Source: Advenella sp. S44
GTDB taxonomy: Bacteria; Pseudomonadota; Gammaproteobacteria; Burkholderiales; Burkholderiaceae_B
Direction: 5' to 3'
Length of the DNA stretch: 64,000 nt
Assembly (NCBI RefSeq): GCF_002810445.1
Contig: NZ_NEXS01000003.1
Location: forward strand, 1,364,001 to 1,428,000
Made by a program: the position numbers and the translations under genes. Shown here piece after piece: positions 16,687-46,469 of the stretch; the first letter of the stretch is position 1; each line of letters opens with the position of its first letter. Under the pieces are notes generated by a model. The model ran no database searches. It was not told the origin of the DNA and was given only the letters and a program-made list of their open reading frames with translations.

Positions 16687-17364
16687 TCAGTGCAAATTAT
16701 GCGGCCTGATGAGGCCGACGGCAATCCCTTCGATGGCAAAATCATTTTCATCGGAAACCACAATGGGGGCGAAATCGTCGTTTTCCGGCAGCAATTCGAC
16801 AACACGGCCCCTGCGGTTAAAGCGTTTGACCGTGACTTCGTCATCGATACGGGCAACGACAACCTGGCCGTTACGCGCATCGGGCGTGCGTTTCACCGCC
16901 AGTAAGTCGCCATCCATGATGCCGATGTTCTGCATACTTTGTCCCTTGACCGTGAGCAGATAGTCGGGTTGTTGCGCAAACAGGGAAGGATCTACGGACA
17001 GTTCGCGATGAATATGTTCTGTGGCAAGAATTGGACTGCCGGCTGCCACTTTACCGACCACCGGCAGTATGAGCTGCCGCAGGCTGTCTGCCAGAGATAC
17101 GCCTGCGCTGGCAGGTGAACTACCGGCCCCCGGCGCTGGAGATTCTGCGTCTTCAACCAACCGGATGCCACGCGAAGCGCCCGCGGTAAGCGTGATGGCA
17201 CCTTTGCGGGCCAGCGCGCGCAAATGATCTTCCGCTGCGTTCGGTGACTTGAATCCCAACGCCGCCGCAATTTCTGCGCGGGTCGGTGGAAAACCGGTAC
17301 GGTCTACGGCGGCCTTGATCAGATTCAGAATTTCCTGCTGACGCGCGGTAAGTTTCAGGCTCAT
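16687..17364 (-). CDS. lexA: LexA, SOS repressor
   Basis: This 225-residue repressor controls the SOS response. The N-terminal winged helix has [16 protein letters not shown] and the [14 protein letters not shown] recognition region. The self-cleavage site A108-G109, catalytic S143 (in GQSM) and K180 (in VTVKRF) are all present. Each is displaced by exactly 24 residues from E. coli A84-G85, S119 and K156, showing a longer Pro/Ser/Ala-rich linker (about residues 71-92). The ATG at 17364 is preferred over the ATG/GTG farther upstream. A perfect SOS box lies 40 bp upstream, so it is autoregulated. Confidence 0.97.
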
Positions 17365-17403
17365 GATTCTCCGAATGGCAAGTGACACATCATAAAAAAC
17401 GGA

Positions 17404-17419
17404 CTGTATGTATATACAG
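17404..17419 (-). promoter_or_regulatory. LexA (SOS) box upstream of lexA
   Basis: CTG-N10-CAG is present at 17404-17419 (CTGTATGTATATACAG). The flanks extend the palindrome (GGA...TCC). It sits 40 bp upstream of the lexA start and matches the consensus used by gamma- and betaproteobacterial LexA. Confidence 0.9.
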
Positions 17420-17503
17420 TCCGTATTCTGACGTATTCACCGGCGGTTGGCAAGCGTTTTCAGTAACAAATCGCCTGAGGGCCGCGGATTCTATCGTTGT
17501 GGC

Positions 17504-18703
17504 TTACAGTACGTTTGCGATTGCCTTGACCACGCTATCGATATTGCGGTTATTGAGCGCGGCCACGCATATGCGGCCACTGTTCACAGCATAGATGCCG
17601 TGCTCAACGCGCAGGCGTTCCACCTGCTCTTTGGTCAGACCTGAATACGAGAACATACCGCGCTGGGACATAATAAAACTGAAATCCTGCTTGACGCCAG
17701 CGGCATTCAACTTGTCTGTGAGCTGCTTACGCATATCACGGATACGTTCACGCATTTGCGCCAATTCGGTTTCCCACAGGTCGAACAGTTCGGGCGTATT
17801 GAGAATCTGCGCTACTACCATGCCGCCGTGCGTGGGCGGATTCGAATAGTTGGTGCGGATAACGCGTTTGATCTGGCTGAGCACCCGCGTGGCCTCGTCC
17901 GGGCTGGTGGTGACAACAGTCAGGGCGCCAACACGTTCGCCATACAGTGAAAAAGATTTGGAGAACGACGAACTGATGAACATGGACATGCCAAGATCTG
18001 CGAACAGGCGCACTACTGCGGCGTCTTCCTGCAAGCCATCGCCAAAGCCCTGGTAGGCGATGTCCAGGAACGGAACCAGATTGCGTTCTTTGACCAGTGC
18101 CGCGATCTTTTGCCATTGTTCCGTGGTGGGATCGACACCGGTAGGGTTGTGGCAGCAGGCATGCAGCACAATGATGGAGCCGGCCGGCATGGCCTTGACC
18201 GCTGCGGCAAAGCCGTCAAAATCCAGGCCATGGCTGGCAGCATCGTAATAGCTATAGGTTTGTACGTTGAACCCGGCGCGCTCGAACAGCGCGCGGTGAT
18301 TTTCCCAGCTTGGATCGCTGATATAAACCGTTGCATCCGGTTGCAGCGTCTTGAGAAAATCGGCGCCGATTTTCAGCGCGCCTGTGCCGCCCAATGCCTG
18401 GAAGGTGAGGGCGCGTCCTTCGGTCAGCACGGCTGAGTCTTTGCCAAATAGCAGCTCCTGCGCTCCTTTATTGTAATTGCCGATGCCTTCAATGGGCAGG
18501 TAGCCTCGGGCCGCATGCGCCTGAACGCGCTGTTTCTCGGCTTCCTGAACTGCCTTGAGCAGAGGAATTTTGCCATTATCATCGTAATACACCCCTACAC
18601 CCAGGTTTACCTTGGTATCGCGGGTATCAGCGTTGTATTGTTCGTTCAGACCCAGGATCGGATCACGGGGGGCGAGCTCGACGGCATTGAAAAGAGTGGT
18701 CAT
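17504..18703 (-). CDS. tyrB: Aromatic amino acid aminotransferase
   Basis: This 399-residue PLP enzyme is an aspartate/aromatic aminotransferase of the TyrB/AspC subfamily Ia. It has the family motif NLGVGVYYDDNGKIPLL, the substrate-site segment HACCHNPTGVDPT, the PLP lysine K249 within SSSFSKSFSLYGERVG, and the C-terminal arginine in GRICVAALN. It transfers amino groups between tyrosine or phenylalanine (and often aspartate) and 2-oxoglutarate. TyrB is preferred over AspC by general resemblance; substrate breadth cannot be read from sequence. It lies between lexA and the divergent uvrB, with no functional link to SOS. Confidence 0.9.
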   Translation of the reverse strand: MTTLFNAVELAPRDPILGLNEQYNADTRDTKVNLGVGVYYDDNGKIPLLKAVQEAEKQRVQAHAARGYLPIEGIGNYNKGAQELLFGKDSAVLTEGRALTFQALGGTGALKIGADFLKTLQPDATVYISDPSWENHRALFERAGFNVQTYSYYDAASHGLDFDGFAAAVKAMPAGSIIVLHACCHNPTGVDPTTEQWQKIAALVKERNLVPFLDIAYQGFGDGLQEDAAVVRLFADLGMSMFISSSFSKSFSLYGERVGALTVVTTSPDEATRVLSQIKRVIRTNYSNPPTHGGMVVAQILNTPELFDLWETELAQMRERIRDMRKQLTDKLNAAGVKQDFSFIMSQRGMFSYSGLTKEQVERLRVEHGIYAVNSGRICVAALNNRNIDSVVKAIANVL

Positions 18704-18805
18704 CGTTTATTAAGGAAGGTAAGGTTGCAGGAAAGGTCAATTAAAGTGGATAATGAATGATTGTACGCCTAAATCAGTGCCAATTTAACCCTGGATGCAC
18801 AATCT

Positions 18806-20827
18806 ATGAGCAAAGCCGGATTTCTCGAATTTGCCGACAGCCCCTTTCAGTTATATCAGCCGTATCCGCCGGCCGGCGATCAGCCAGCCGCCATCGAAGC
18901 CCTGACGCAGGGGGTCGATGATGGCCTCATGTACCAGACACTGCTCGGCGTTACCGGCTCAGGCAAAACCTTCACCATGGCCAATGTCATAGCCCGTCTC
19001 GGGCGACCAGCGCTGGTGCTGGCCCCGAACAAGACCCTGGCGGCCCAGCTGTATTCGGAGTTCAGGGAGTTTTTCCCGCGCAATGCGGTTGAGTATTTTG
19101 TGTCTTACTACGACTACTATCAGCCCGAAGCGTATGTGCCCACGCGCGATCTGTTCATTGAAAAGGATTCATCCATCAACGAACACATCGAACAGATGCG
19201 TCTGTCGGCAACCAAGAGTCTGCTGGAGCGGCGCGACACGATTATCGTGGGCACGGTGTCCTGCATTTACGGTATTGGTAACCCGGGCGATTATCATGCC
19301 ATGGTGCTGGTTTTGCGCACGGGCGATCGCACACCACGCCAGGAAATCCTGGCGCGTCTGGTCTCCATGCAATACGAACGCAATGATATTGACTTTACCC
19401 GGGGCACCTTCCGCGTACGCGGCGAGGTCATCGACATCTTCCCGGCCGAAAGCGCCGAGCTGGCGGTACGGCTGAGTCTGTTTGATGACGAGCTCGAAAG
19501 CATCGACCTGTTTGATCCCCTGACCGGCAAAATTCGCCAGCGCGTTCCCAGGTTTACGGTTTACCCAAGTTCGCATTATGTGACCCCGCGCGACACCGTA
19601 TTGCGTGCGATTGAGACTATCAAGGAAGAGCTGCGCGATCGCACCAAATTCTTTGTGGACAATAACCAGTTGGTCGAGGCGCAGCGGATCGAACAGCGCA
19701 CAAGGTTCGACATCGAGATGCTGCAGGAGCTGGGTTTTTGCAAGGGGATTGAAAACTACTCCCGCCATTTGTCCGGCGCCGCGCCCGGCGATCCACCGCC
19801 CACGCTGATCGATTATCTGCCACAGGACGCGCTCATGTTCTTTGACGAGAGTCACTGGATGATGGGGCAGTTACGCGCCATGTATCGCGGGGATCGTTCG
19901 CGCAAGGAGACTCTGGTGCAGTTTGGTTTTCGCCTGCCTTCGGCAATGGATAACCGGCCGCTGAAGATGGAAGAGTTCGAGCAACGCGTGCGGCAGAGCG
20001 TCTTTGTATCGGCCACGCCCTCTGATTATGAGAACGAGCATTCCGACAACGTGGTGCGGCAAGTGGTGCGTCCGACAGGCCTGGTCGATCCCATGGTCGA
20101 GGTGCGCCCTGCGCTCACGCAGGTGGACGATCTGCTGGGTGAGGCCAAATTGCGTATTGCGGTGGGCGAGCGGGTGCTTGTGACTACGCTGACCAAGCGC
20201 ATGGCAGAGGATCTGACTGATTATCTGACCGAAAGCGGCATGAAGGTGCGTTACCTGCATTCGGACATCGATACGGTAGAACGGGTCGAGATCATTCGTG
20301 ATCTGCGCCTGGGGCATTTCGATATTCTGGTCGGTATCAACCTGTTACGAGAGGGATTGGATATTCCCGAGGTGTCGCTGGTGGCCATTCTGGACGCAGA
20401 TAAAGAAGGCTTTTTGCGTTCCGAGCGCAGCCTGATCCAGACCATTGGCCGTGCGGCAAGGAACCTTAACGGCAGAGCCATCCTGTACGCCGATCGCATT
20501 ACCGATTCCATGCGGCGCGCCATGGAAGAAACGGAAAAACGCAGAAACTTGCAGATTGCATTCAATACCGAACACGGCATTGTCCCGCAAGGCGTGCACA
20601 AGTCGGTGCGCGAAATGATTGATGGGGTAATTCAGGATGCGCCGGAAGCGCAGACTGCAGAAGATATCCGCCTTGAGTCATTGCTGGTTGATGAAAAGGC
20701 GCTGGCCAAAGAGATCCGTCGGCTGGAAAAACAGATGCAGGATCACGCTCGCAATTTGGAGTTCGAGCAGGCTGCAGCTGCCAGGGATCAGCTAACCCGT
20801 CTTAAGGAAATGGTCCTGCTGCGCTAG
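18806..20827 (+). CDS. uvrB: UvrB, excinuclease ABC subunit B
   Basis: This 673-residue helicase-like subunit handles damage verification in nucleotide excision repair. It shows Walker [11 protein letters not shown], the beta-hairpin [12 protein letters not shown], motif DESH, the C-terminal helicase motifs ([29 protein letters not shown]), and a UVR domain at the end (residues about 635-670) that contacts UvrC. The length matches the family. The ATG at 18806 gives the expected N-terminus. No CTG-N10-CAG box is visible in its 100-bp promoter region, so SOS control is not evident. Confidence 0.97.
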
Positions 20828-20967
20828 TACGGGCAAATGAAAGCATGTCGGTGCCCATATTTCACACAAGTATTGAATAATTTATTCAGGTGAGTCTGAC
20901 GGCTTAAGCTGTCTATAAATCAGGTTATGATACAGTCCGTTTTTCAACAAGTTCGATATGACAAAAA

Positions 20968-21477
20968 ATGCGTGTGAACTCTTTCAGTAAACAATTCATT
21001 GCGCTCATTGCCATTGTGACGGTGCTGAGTGTCATTATTGTCGGATATATCGAGCAGCAGGTCGTGGAAACCGTTGAGCAGCCGGTTCCCGCCAAGCAGG
21101 CTGCAGAAGAAAAACACAACGAAGCGCTGATCAATTCGCTGACCAATATGACGCAGAGCGTTCGCTTTCCATTGAACGAGAATGCAATCATGTACACCGG
21201 ATATATTTTGGGTGCCGGGTATTCGTCTTATCAGTTTCGGGCGTTCAAAGACCAGAAACTGAAAGTCAATTTGAAAGGGGATGCGTCCATCGATCTGGCG
21301 CTATTTGGCCAGGAAGCTTATTCGCTGCAGCGAGATGTTGAATATATTATTCCCTCGGAAGGACTGTACGAGTTAAGGGTTCTGTTCAAGACTGATATGG
21401 AAACGCGCCAGGAACAGGCCGCGATCGCCCATAAGGCAACACCCGTTCCTTATACCATTACGATTAATCTGCATTGA
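20968..21477 (+). CDS. Unknown membrane-anchored periplasmic protein
   Basis: This 169-residue protein has one N-terminal transmembrane helix (residues about 9-27) followed by a short acidic/Gln-rich linker. A probable beta-sandwich domain (residues about 60-169) contains GYSSYQFRAFKDQKLKVNLKG and ends YTITINLH. The alternating pattern and position of GYxxxxFRAxxxQKL resemble small secreted beta-sandwich proteins such as PliG-type lysozyme inhibitors or PPC domains. This is only a structural impression; I do not recognise the family. The gene is monocistronic and followed by a good intrinsic terminator. It lies between uvrB and rdgC. Confidence 0.65.
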   Translation: MRVNSFSKQFIALIAIVTVLSVIIVGYIEQQVVETVEQPVPAKQAAEEKHNEALINSLTNMTQSVRFPLNENAIMYTGYILGAGYSSYQFRAFKDQKLKVNLKGDASIDLALFGQEAYSLQRDVEYIIPSEGLYELRVLFKTDMETRQEQAAIAHKATPVPYTITINLH

Positions 21478-21604
21478 TCCGTTCAAACGGCCGCTGTAGT
21501 AACCGCGCTCGTACCAGCGCAGTGGCGCTTTGGGGAAAGGGTAGTACGATGGCAGTGGACGGCGCAAGCTGATATCGCGATTGTCGCCATCTAAATGCAA
21601 AAAC

Positions 21605-21627
21605 AGGGGCTCTTGCCCCTTTTCTTA
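21605..21627 (+). terminator. Intrinsic terminator
   Basis: Stem AGGGGC/GCCCCT (21605-21610 with 21615-21620), loop TCTT, followed by TTTTCTT. It ends the transcript of the unknown protein gene and lies just past the convergent rdgC stop. Confidence 0.8.
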
Positions 21628-21646
21628 TGTCTGTTTGCTGCGAATA

Positions 21647-22552
21647 CTACTTGGCAGTCTCTTTCTCGCCACCCAATGCCTCGACCAGTGCACCCAGCAA
21701 TCCCGCCAGCTCGGCCGTCATCAGGGTCATGTCCGCATCGAAGCGTTCTTCGTCATCCATGGCGGACAAGTCCTGGTTCTCTTTAAGGATATCCAGTGGC
21801 GCGATACGTTTGATGATTAAGTTGTCGCTCAATACAAATGAAATGCGGTCCGACCAGGTAAGCGCCAGCTTCGTGCATTGCTTGCCCGATTGGATATGCT
21901 TTTGTACGTCTTCCTTTTCGGGACTCTGGCGAACGTAACGAATGGTCGCCTTGTTCTCGGATGACGACTGCAGCTCGGTATCCTGATCGATTGAAAACAT
22001 CGCCGGCGCCTCGTCGGCCAGCAACCATTCAGTCATGGCTGCAGAAGGCGATTGTTCGGTATACAGGCTTTTAAGCGGCAACGGGTCTATGACTTTGGCC
22101 AGTGCGCCGATCACTTCGTCTGCCTTGGTGGCAGAAGCGGCATCAATCACCAGCCAATGGTTCACCGGATCAATCCACACCCGCGTATCGCGAAATATAC
22201 TGAATGCCTTGGGCAGCAGCGTATCGGTAACCTGCTCCTTGATTTCACGCATTTGCTTGCGGCCAGGCTTGTATCCTTGCTGCTCTTCAATTTCCTGTGC
22301 GCGGGCACGAGTAAATTGGTTAATAACAGTGGCGGGCAGCAGTTTTTTTTCAGTGCGCAGAGACAGCAGGTACTGGCCGCCAAGGGCGTGAGCAAGGAAA
22401 CCGTTTTCCCGGGCAGGCACCCAGCCCATGCTATTCATATCCGATTTGTTGCCAGGAACGAAAGCGGCTTTTGCCAGCTTGTCTTCAAGCTCGTCCTGCG
22501 TGGGTTTCCAGTCGGCAGACAGCCGGTAAACGCTCAGATTCTTAAACCACAT
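21647..22552 (-). CDS. rdgC: RdgC, recombination-associated DNA-binding protein
   Basis: This 301-residue protein begins [11 protein letters not shown], the hallmark start of RdgC. It carries further conserved parts: [48 protein letters not shown] and [17 protein letters not shown]. RdgC forms a ring around double-stranded DNA and can restrain RecA filament formation. The gene lies on the minus strand, back to back with recA some 830 bp away, so two RecA-related genes neighbour each other. The length equals that of E. coli RdgC (about 303). Confidence 0.95.
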
Positions 22553-22807
22553 ACTTTTACGCCAAAAGCATTAATTGTACCGGCTATCGTTAAGGCAAGT
22601 GGTCCGGTAGGCTGCTGGTTACCGTAAAACTTTGCGTCTTCGAGCCATGTCGCAAGCCGGCAGCCGGTCGTGGTCGGGCAGCGGGCACCTGGCCAGGCTG
22701 GTCGCGCCCGGCCGATCGTTTGGGCCACGGGGCGGGCAAAAGGAATCTATACATCCGCCTGGGTCTTTATGCCAGTCATTCAATATGTGAACGCGTTGGT
22801 AAAAACC

Positions 22808-22832
22808 AAAAAAAACCTGCCCGGAGGCAGGT
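22808..22832 (-). terminator. Intrinsic terminator of the candidate small RNA
   Basis: A perfect 7-bp stem (22815-22821 with 22826-22832) has a 4-nt loop. On the minus strand it is followed by eight consecutive T (A at 22808-22815 on plus). No annotated minus-strand gene ends upstream of it. Confidence 0.82.
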
Positions 22833-23000
22833 CAATACGGGTTTCAGCGCTGCAAAAAACTTTCGGGGTGCAGCACTGACAATGCTGACGAAACATCAAA
22901 AGGGGATTGAAGCTTGTCGATTCGTCACCATTAGTATTGGAATATAGAGCCTGGGCTCTGACAATGTCCTGAATCGTGTTGGTAAAGAACACACAACAGG
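22808..23000 (-). ncRNA. Candidate structured small RNA divergent from recA
   Basis: Read on the minus strand, the region shows successive hairpins: AGAGC/GCTCT (22946-22959), GACGAA/TTCGTC (22887-22892 with 22921-22926) and CAGCA/TGCTG (22871-22887). It ends in a canonical intrinsic terminator (22808-22832). No convincing reading frame explains it: the one available begins with GTG, lacks a ribosome site and runs through the terminator. The 5' end is a guess; it should lie just left of the SOS box at 23028-23043. Transcript and function are inferred. Confidence 0.45.
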
Positions 23001-23027
23001 ATAAAAAAAGCAGAAAATGTGAATTTA

Positions 23028-23043
23028 CTGGCTAAATATACAG
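23028..23043. promoter_or_regulatory. LexA (SOS) box at the recA promoter
   Basis: CTG-N10-CAG (CTGGCTAAATATACAG) with the flanks TA..TA matches the SOS consensus. A TATAAT directly follows at 23044-23049 and is probably the recA -10 element. The box is symmetrical, so it could also repress a divergent minus-strand promoter. Confidence 0.85.
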
Positions 23044-23261
23044 TATAATTTAATGCGATAATACTTGTTTATCACAATGTATAGGATAACTATGAATAGG
23101 CCACTATGAATACGATATCCGGACAAATCGCTGTAACGCCGTGTTTTGCATTGTAGCGGCTCGCTGTTGCCTGGTGCCAGCGCCTGCGACCATCAGGTGG
23201 AACGCAAACCCTGAGCGTTGTGTGCCTGGCGCAGTTTATTGATGTGACCGGTAGCGGGGCG

Positions 23262-23291
23262 ATTTTACGTCAGGCCAGGCCTGCGTAAAAT
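23262..23291 (+). other. Strong hairpin in the recA leader
   Basis: ATTTTACG-T-CAGG pairs with CCTG-CGTAAAAT around a CCAGG loop. It lies 90 nt upstream of the recA start inside the long leader. Its role, if any, is unknown. Confidence 0.5.
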
Positions 23292-23380
23292 TGCAGTTAC
23301 GGTATTCACGTCTTTCTTCGAAAGCAGTTTGTCTATATATTGCGATATCAGGTTTCTCTATTCAGTCACAAGGACCCTCC

Positions 23381-24460
23381 ATGGACGACAAGCAATCCAA
23401 AGCAGCCCGCGCCGACCGCGCCAAGGCACTCACCGCAGCACTCTCTCAAATTGAAAAGCAGTTCGGCAAAGGCTCCGTTATGCGCTACGGCGATAACGAA
23501 ATCTCCCACGATATCCAGGTCGTATCCACCGGCTCACTTGGGCTGGACATCGCGCTGGGCGTGGGCGGACTGCCTCGCGGTCGCGTCGTTGAGATCTACG
23601 GTCCGGAATCGTCCGGTAAAACAACGTTAACGCTGCAGGTCATTGCCGAAATGCAGAAAATCGGTGGCACCTGCGCGTTTATTGATGCCGAGCACGCGCT
23701 GGACGTGCAATATGCCTCCAAGCTGGGGGTTAGTCTGGAAGACCTGCTTATTTCCCAGCCGGATACCGGCGAACAGGCGTTGGAAATTACCGATGCGCTG
23801 GTGCGCTCCGGATCCGTCGACCTGATTGTTATTGACTCGGTTGCTGCTCTGGTGCCGCGCGCGGAAATCGAAGGGGACATGGGCGACAGCCTGCCGGGCT
23901 TGCAGGCCCGGCTCATGAGCCAGGCCCTGCGTAAACTTACGGCTTCCATCAAGCGTACTAACTGCATGGTCATTTTCATCAACCAGATTCGCATGAAAAT
24001 CGGCGTCATGTTCGGTAGTCCCGAAACCACGACTGGCGGCAACGCCCTCAAGTTCTATGCTTCTGTCCGTCTGGATATCCGACGTATCGGTTCCATCAAA
24101 AAAGGCGATGAAGTGGTCGGTAACGAAACCCGTGTCAAGGTGGTCAAGAACAAAGTATCGCCACCGTTCAAGCAGGCGGAGTTCGACATCATGTATGGTG
24201 CAGGTATCTCCCGCGAGGGCGAGATCATCGATCTGGGTGTGCAGGCAGGTGTCGTAGATAAGGCGGGTGCCTGGTATAGCTACAGCGGAACCCGCATTGG
24301 TCAGGGTAAGGACAATGTCCGTGAATACCTGAAAGAACACAGGGAAATGGCTGTGGAAATTGAAAACCGGGTACGTGAGAATATGGGCATTATTGCGCGC
24401 GCCCAGGAATTTAAGGCCGATCCTGAGGATGCTGCTCAGGCTACGGAAGCCGATGAGTGA
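23381..24460 (+). CDS. recA: RecA recombinase
   Basis: This 359-residue ATPase forms the strand-exchange filament and promotes LexA self-cleavage. Walker A GPESSGKT covers residues 74-81. Also visible are the conserved IDAEHALD and the L1/L2 loops ([33 protein letters not shown]). The C-terminus is acidic as usual. I chose ATG 23381, with AAGGACC upstream, over an upstream TTG at 23291 that would add 30 foreign residues. The SOS box lies about 340 bp upstream, giving an unusually long leader. It overlaps recX by 8 nt. Confidence 0.98.
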
Positions 24461-24992
24461 TTTTTCCCAAGAGCAGGGCAGGCGTGGCCCAGGCCGCAGT
24501 CTGCTTGCTCGTGGCATTTCGTATCTATCCAGGCGCGAGCATTCGGAATACGAACTTAGAAAAAAGCTTGCCCCCTACGCGGAAAGTTCCGATGAGCTTG
24601 ACGCAGTCATGTTTCGCCTGAAAAAGGAAAACTGGCAGTCGGACAGTCGTTTTCTGCAGGCCACCGCAAACGTCACCGCGCAAAAATGGGGGACGGCTCG
24701 TATCGCCGCCAAATTGCGGCAACATCAGCTTTGCGATGAACAAGTCAATGCCACGCTTCAAAGTCTGCAAGGCTCAGAACAGGAGCGTGCCAAAGCCGTG
24801 TGGGAAAAAAAATTCAAGGGGCAGGGATATACCACGCCCCAGGAATATGCCAAACAAGCCCGTTTTTTGTTAGGCCGGGGGTTTTCGCCCGATATCGTCA
24901 GGAAGGTCATTCGGTCTGCATCAGACGGTTTTGCGTCAGATGATTCTGCATCAGACGGTTTTGCATCCGACAATTCCCCATATGACGGTTAA
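24453..24992 (+). CDS. recX: RecX, RecA-modulating protein
   Basis: This 179-residue regulator binds the RecA filament and limits its activity. It is built of three-helix repeats; conserved pieces include [32 protein letters not shown] and [25 protein letters not shown]. The ATG overlaps the recA stop (ATGAGTGA), so the genes are coupled. The last 25 residues are an unusual Ser/Asp/Gly-rich tail made by a 30-bp tandem duplication in the DNA; they fall outside the conserved family and may be dispensable. Confidence 0.92.
24915..24974 (+). repeat. 30-bp tandem duplication in the recX tail
   Basis: The two 30-bp units (24915-24944 and 24945-24974) are near-identical and begin TCTGCATCAGACGG. 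They encode repeats of SASDGFASD and extend recX past its conserved end. Partial echoes (GACGGTTAAATGACGGTTAA) follow the stop codon. Confidence 0.8.
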
Positions 24993-25002
24993 ATGACGGT
25001 TA

Positions 25003-25133
25003 ACTCAGGCAATTGACCCGCCGAGATTAACGTGGGCAATTTGTGGGGAATTCTTCGGGCTATTTATTCGGATCCTTCACTCGGGCAAGTGACCCGGGCG
25101 AGCGACTCAGCCAAGTGACTCGGTCAACTGGCC
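25003..25133. repeat. Interspersed 18-bp repeats after recX
   Basis: Three copies of ACTCRGSCAAKTGACYCG lie at 25003-25020, 25079-25096 and 25105-25122, with a partial fourth at 25118-25133. They fall between the convergent recX and cfa genes. No gene or clear terminator is seen in this 269-bp gap. Confidence 0.7.
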
Positions 25134-25261
25134 TAACCAAGCAACTTGCGTAAGTTATTCAAGAAGCCCCGAATATAGCGGCCTGTTAGTGCCTGCATTC
25201 ATCCGGGGTTGCTTGCTCTCTTTCAATTTTGCTTCGCGCCAATCGGGTCTGGCCCTTTTTT

Positions 25262-46139: not shown

Positions 46140-46469
46140 AATGTTTCAGGTGACAGTCGTCAAGAATAATCAGAAATGGAATATAACGTATTTGGAAGAC
46201 CTCATTTTGAGGTCGATCAAAGCGGATAGGTTTGATATGAGCTGCAACGGAATGGATTTTTCAGTTTGAATTCCGAAGCCGGCGTATGGGGCCGGGCCAG
46301 TCAAGGAAAGGGTACTCCTGAAAGGCAAACAGCAGCCAAATGCGTCTGTAGTTAAATGTAAGAATACCATTTATCGATAAAGATTGTCGATAAGCGTGAT
46401 TAATAGGCGACAAAAAACGCTTTGAACACGTAAAATGTCTGTTTTTTTGAACAGTATTGAGAAAAACAC
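46140..46469. other. Divergent trxA-parE promoter region
   Basis: 330 bp without a gene. The word TCGATAA recurs (46373-46395: TTATCGATAA and GTCGATAAGC). No operator of known type is evident. Confidence 0.5.

Follow-up and report, generated by a model that had tools for sequence, protein, structure and literature searches.

Trans-encoded small RNAs of the Hfq type form a general class in proteobacteria, and at the E. coli type I toxin locus TisB/IstR a LexA box adjoins a structured RNA. The Klebsiella pneumoniae small RNA DinR is discussed alongside LexA and SOS in the part of the source considered here (PMC10907235), and 28 of 629 intergenic non-coding RNAs of Vibrio cholerae are given, in the portion of that report used, as at least 2-fold up under mitomycin/SOS induction (PMC5963079). 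Here, we carried out a computational characterization of a small RNA candidate on the minus strand of the recA-rdgC intergenic space of Advenella (Alcaligenaceae), located in a 64,000-nucleotide stretch of Advenella sp. S44 (the whole stretch analysed, called the window below). The candidate resembles Hfq-type small RNAs in being a short intergenic gene that has promoter-like boxes, a T8 terminator and hairpins whose unpaired letters are constant, and that has no shared reading frame. It differs in matching no Rfam family, and its link to Hfq is presumptive; unlike TisB/IstR, it has no conserved peptide frame. Compared with DinR, as described in the part of that paper considered (PMC10907235), the Advenella RNA has a gene of its own, for which LexA control is a possibility. 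Among the Vibrio cholerae RNAs, compared by description only, none is named between recA and rdgC in the portion of the report used (PMC5963079).

The only hit in the window to reach the gathering threshold of Rfam release 15 is a tRNA at another place; this locus gave sub-threshold matches only. Among the papers listed in the openly licensed literature searched on small RNAs with SOS/LexA, recA, rdgC, Advenella or Bordetella, there was no description of the RNA; in a paper on Bordetella small RNAs, recA and rdgC are each counted 0 times in the main text (PMC3110155). Comparative evidence indicates that the small RNA is real and has no Rfam name, which would give the genus, for which the literature searched showed no such RNA, a small RNA family supported by covariation across ten genomes. 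The interpretation we favour, and consider probable, is a trans-acting regulatory small RNA gene, so far seen only in Advenella and most likely transcribed from its own promoter (P2) to a T8 terminator. The gene and its control region comprise the following features.

22808..22934, minus strand: predicted small RNA of ca. 127 nt, its putative start placed from the -10 box
22808..22832, minus strand: intrinsic terminator with T8 tail; stem and T8 in 10/10 genus genomes
22834..22841, minus strand: unpaired linker CCCGTATT, a candidate pairing site; eight letters identical in 10/10 genomes
22844..22879, minus strand: hairpin 2 with a CCCC bulge and small inner stem; both-side changes in 8/13 pairs
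22880..22933, minus strand: hairpin 1; loop letters CAATCCCCTTTTG fixed across the six large-genome species
22941..22946, minus strand: P2 -10 box TATATT; TATATT, TATAGT or TAGTAT in 10/10
22957..22973, minus strand: near-invariant 17-mer TTCAGGACATTGTCAGA; identical in 9/10, one change in L007
22965..22970, minus strand: P2 -35 box AGGACA, within the 17-mer; identical in 10/10
22974..23025, minus strand: variable sequence separating the LexA box from the 17-mer; 55% identity, without a consistent fold
23026..23045: LexA box, 20 bp, by position the recA operator
23022..23049, plus strand: recA promoter assigned by its position and by analogy with E. coli recA (AATTTA, 16 bp, TATAAT, from the sequence), spanning the LexA box
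23022..23049, minus strand: possible LexA-covered promoter P1' (ATTATA, 16 bp, TAAATT), weak in the window

DNA search and a covariance model placed the RNA element in all ten genomes of the genus, although in four of them the DNA match covered the LexA-box end only and reading onward revealed the RNA. The genus falls into a group of large genomes (4.3-4.9 Mb, loci L001-L006, including the window) and a group of small genomes (2.6-3.3 Mb, L007-L010), and the RNA letters of the two groups differ widely. An intrinsic terminator with a 7-bp stem and T8 had been proposed on the minus strand and is indeed found, at 22832-22808: it reads ACCTGCC-TCCG-GGCAGGT followed by T8. Of the terminator-like sites in 21000-25200, which number 11 compared with 5.3 ± 2.3 in shuffles, it has the most stem pairs. 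Upstream of the terminator and linker, the CCCCG of hairpin 2 is kept in nine genomes (CCTCG in L010), and hairpin 1 has the same C-rich unpaired AATCCCCTTTT in each of the six large-genome members. An equivalent of hairpin 1 is predicted in the four small-genome species.

Fold significance was expressed as a z-score against 200 dinucleotide shuffles. The 264-nt minus strand from the LexA box to the terminator folds at -78.3 kcal/mol compared with -54.6 ± 4.1 for shuffles (z -5.8, 0/200 as good). This signal stems from the 3' 128-142 nt, the RNA from approximately the P2 start, which gave z-scores of -4.56 to -7.14 with 0/200 shuffles as good in every genus genome. For the 69-77 nt from the box to the end of the 17-mer, the z-score was -2.13 in the window and ranged from +0.57 to -1.41 among the nine relatives. 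Three successive hairpins had been described in the original prediction and all could be located. Two of them are conserved together with the terminator, but the 5'-most one (ca. 23001-22967) is weak (z -2.13, 5/200 shuffles as good) and has no matching fold in the nine relatives, so that the conserved anatomy is two hairpins and a terminator rather than three hairpins.

Compensatory changes were assessed in an alignment of hairpin 2 and the terminator (10 sequences, 20 pairs). In this alignment 97% of cells pair, compared with 27-47% when partners are slid by 1-3 columns. Both-side changes occur at 8/20 pairs, a count equalled by 4/500 shuffles, and the covariation score was reached in 0/500. 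The terminator itself is uninformative for covariation as 6/7 of its pairs are invariant. Hairpin 1 was treated by group and showed both-side changes at 2/18 pairs in the six large-genome sequences and at 4/16 pairs in the four small-genome sequences. Overall, stem letters covary between species while loop and linker letters stay constant. Stems, terminator and compensatory changes in all ten genomes thus strongly support the central claim of the original prediction, a structured small RNA.

An identity profile, calculated as the mean over all sequence pairs of the ten-genome alignment, separates the promoter and RNA from their surroundings. Identity is 89% at the LexA box and its flank, 55% from the box to the 17-mer, 99% in the 17-mer and 49% in the next 10 columns, followed by 81% at the P2 -10 box, 54% in the hairpin 1 region, 70% in hairpin 2, 84% each in linker and terminator, and 38% past the terminator. 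Such a profile points to a promoter and a structured RNA beginning after the 17-mer, not to a conserved RNA starting at the LexA box. The two P2 boxes are separated by 17 or 18 bp, with the -10 box being TATATT in five genomes, TATAGT in four and TAGTAT in L006, and P2 ranks first or second by consensus score in 9/10 genomes, ties counted. When the sequence is folded from the -10 box on, pairing begins 1-9 nt past the box in all ten genomes; in some of them the first paired base belongs to a longer-range pair, not to hairpin 1. The near-constant spacing of two conserved boxes and a fold that starts just after the -10 box make P2 stand out from chance-level sites.

The nearly invariant 17-mer in the control region of the RNA is conserved beyond the needs of a -35 box. 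It may be part of a promoter under unusual constraint, or else serve as operator for some regulator. Exact copies were found in 61 stretches of the genome contig collection, compared with a chance expectation of ca. 60 (arithmetic, equal base frequencies). Seven copies are on the recA side, in six named Advenella and one Alcaligenaceae metagenome-assembled genome, and the remaining 54 are in records titled for many different, unrelated groups. Among the matches listed, seven genus genomes have a single exact copy each, and copies at up to 3 mismatches number 8-32 per genus genome compared with 1-7 for a reversed control. A role as a common operator was considered and rejected, as 18 of 20 fetched non-recA copies lie inside stop-free frames of at least 250 codons and no regulon was found among them. 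The 17-mer also contains a small palindrome, GACATTGTC.

A covariance search of relatives had been proposed with the original prediction. Our model (R1), built from hairpin 2 and the terminator, scored 76-101 bits in all ten genus genomes, where stems and terminator are kept; a single extra match in genome G006 (23.6 bits) is at background level. Outside the genus, 64/258 family genomes matched at E <= 0.01, none above 38.6 bits, and in an order-wide sample partly overlapping the family sample 9/398 other genomes matched at E <= 1e-4, none above 34.0 bits; both scans used the stricter filters of Infernal, with which strongly diverged relatives could escape. The 10 best of 15 extra-genus loci were rejected as relatives since they are ordinary terminators, none with the full CCCGUAUU. 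The DNA search of 268 family genomes gave matches in 22, the 12 outside the genus being 11 recA-promoter pieces and one terminator piece. Among 32 extra-genus loci examined on the recA/rdgC side, four (L011, L019, L020, L157) have recA and rdgC divergent, with no terminator between them in a simple scan. As far as searched, the RNA appears to be specific to Advenella and looks like a gain in this lineage.

Based on these features, transcription would start at ca. 22934 from P2 (AGGACA, 17-18 bp, TATAnT) and end at the T8 terminator, yielding a product of ca. 127 nt in the window; in relatives it would reach as much as ca. 139 nt. The predicted RNA would carry, in order, hairpin 1, hairpin 2, the CCCGUAUU linker and the terminator hairpin, and its U8 tail is a likely handle for Hfq. 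Pairing with the ribosome-binding regions of mRNAs would likely involve the constant, unpaired C-rich letters of the hairpin 1 loop, the CCCC bulge and the linker; letters of this kind would suit purine-rich ribosome-binding sites.

Several observations weigh against this interpretation. P2 scores are modest (7.5-9), P2 of L006 falls outside the six best promoter sites, and the promoter scan of the window is near chance (5 sites found, 3.6 expected). Further, in L006, L008 and L009 P2 is outscored by a site (9.5) that overlaps the LexA box. On the structural side, the count of further pair types is ordinary (reached by 150/500 shuffles for hairpin 2 and terminator and by 406/500 for the six-sequence hairpin 1), the two species groups have hairpin 1 sequences that do not align with each other, and for the small-genome group the covariation of this hairpin is little better than one control, as partners slid by +3 also give five changed cells. 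Finally, two seed searches in ten genomes (AAAGGGGAT-N-ATG and AATACGGGT-N-ATG) yielded no conserved target.

Two candidate targets were considered. AATACGGGTTTTCATG recurs in five genomes and, in the four viewed, falls within an open frame, at its 3' end, as judged by eye. A permease gene with the ribosome site AAAGGGGATGCGCMATG, which we take to be FecCD-like, was seen with its frame in genomes G004 and G008 and as a pattern match in G003. This is a weak lead, and we do not claim the gene as a target since it is absent from the window genome among the matches listed. Pairing with recA or rdgC leaders, calculated by a method that ignores internal folding, was mostly not above shuffles. An exception is recA in L006, where 6/100 shuffles were as good, while the apparent rdgC signal in L007-L010 (0-2/100) is an artefact of a tested stretch that includes the terminator itself.

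The main alternative is an SOS-induced small RNA, in which a minus-strand promoter overlapping the LexA box gives a transcript of ca. 200-230 nt upon DNA damage, alone or besides the P2 transcript. This corresponds to the original prediction of an SOS-linked RNA sharing a symmetrical LexA operator with recA. The box is located at 23028-23043 as proposed, although its core (CTGTATATTTAGCCAG) has CCAG in place of ACAG and is therefore imperfectly symmetrical. Promoter-like sites overlapping the box are present in each of the ten genomes. On the minus strand, P1' mirrors the recA promoter, with ATTATA, the 16-bp LexA box core and then a -10 box that is TATAAT in L002, L003 and L005, TATTAT in L004 and TATAAC in L006. 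Sites of a second kind place the -35 box inside the LexA box (TAGACA/TACACA, 16 bp, CATAAT/CATATT/TAAAAT) in L006-L010 and account for the scores above P2 in L006, L008 and L009, while the window has TAAACA-18-TATACT with 9/12 consensus matches. However, P1' has only a weak -10 box (TAAATT) in the window and is lost in L007-L010, the LexA-overlapping sites differ in kind with none common to all ten genomes, and AT-rich LexA boxes easily yield matches resembling -10 or -35 boxes. The 52-60 nt past the LexA box are variable, and in 9/10 genomes they do not fold; together with the missing common site this disfavours the box as the main promoter of the RNA. The conserved P2 lies downstream, with 56 bp between its -35 box and the LexA box, so that the box does not overlap the conserved promoter of the RNA.

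We consider such an SOS-induced transcript rather unlikely. The same holds for the arrangement it would imply, for which we see only a small chance: recA and the small RNA sharing one near-symmetrical LexA operator in Advenella or part of it, with damage releasing RecA and a longer RNA atop a basal P2 form. With such a shared operator, the RNA would be an SOS small RNA with a gene of its own, transcribed divergently from recA. The best reading of the LexA box is as the operator of recA, which already accounts for its presence, and the box with its surrounding letters occurs at recA in 11 extra-genus loci (L011-L021), none of which was found to have the RNA. Most likely, the SOS link is a by-product of the adjoining recA operator. 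Were a LexA-box promoter active on the RNA strand, it would connect an RNA regulator straight to the switch that controls recA; if there is no such promoter, the locus is an example of a recA operator mimicking control of a neighbouring gene.

A second alternative is that the structured RNA forms the 5' end of the rdgC mRNA as a leader or attenuator, with the terminator bypassed under some condition. RNA and rdgC are on the same strand in 10/10 genomes and rdgC starts 39 nt past the T run in the small-genome species. In the window, the start of rdgC at 22552 lies 255 bp past the terminator, in agreement with the original prediction. This distance is not kept: four species have 39 nt and the other six 130-255 nt. 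Moreover, identity past the terminator is just 38%, and no conserved alternative (antiterminator) pairing was seen, though no systematic search for it was made. We therefore regard a leader function as very unlikely. The remaining alternative, an mRNA that encodes a small peptide or a type I toxin induced by SOS, is suggested by the adjoining LexA box, a 19-codon frame common to L002-L004 and other short frames in L001, L005 and L006, but is extremely improbable, as L007-L010 have no frame of at least 8 codons in the RNA, L001-L006 have none in common, the frame shared by L002-L004 is expected from near-identical DNA, and conservation sits in loops and stems. No conserved short hydrophobic frame was found across the ten genomes, and a conserved peptide is unlikely.

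The free-standing small RNA gene favoured here lies between the DNA-repair genes rdgC and recA, in a neighbourhood for which NCBIfam identified the following genes.

16687-17364: lexA
18806-20827: uvrB
21647-22552, minus strand: rdgC, start at 22552
23381-24460: recA
24453-24992: recX

These five genes span ca. 8.3 kb (16687-24992). A perfect CTGT-N8-ACAG box is located at 17404-17419, immediately upstream of lexA, and such boxes occur at three more places (635-650, 2295-2310 and 46439-46454). Across the window, CTGT-N8-MCAG gave 12 strand matches compared with 2.5 expected. The recA leader measures ca. 330 bases in the window (23050-23380) and ca. 60 in the small-genome species. Between uvrB and rdgC lies a frame of 169 amino acids (20968-21477) without an NCBIfam match, and a sequence similar to its C-terminal part was found beside rdgC in L174 (genome G006).
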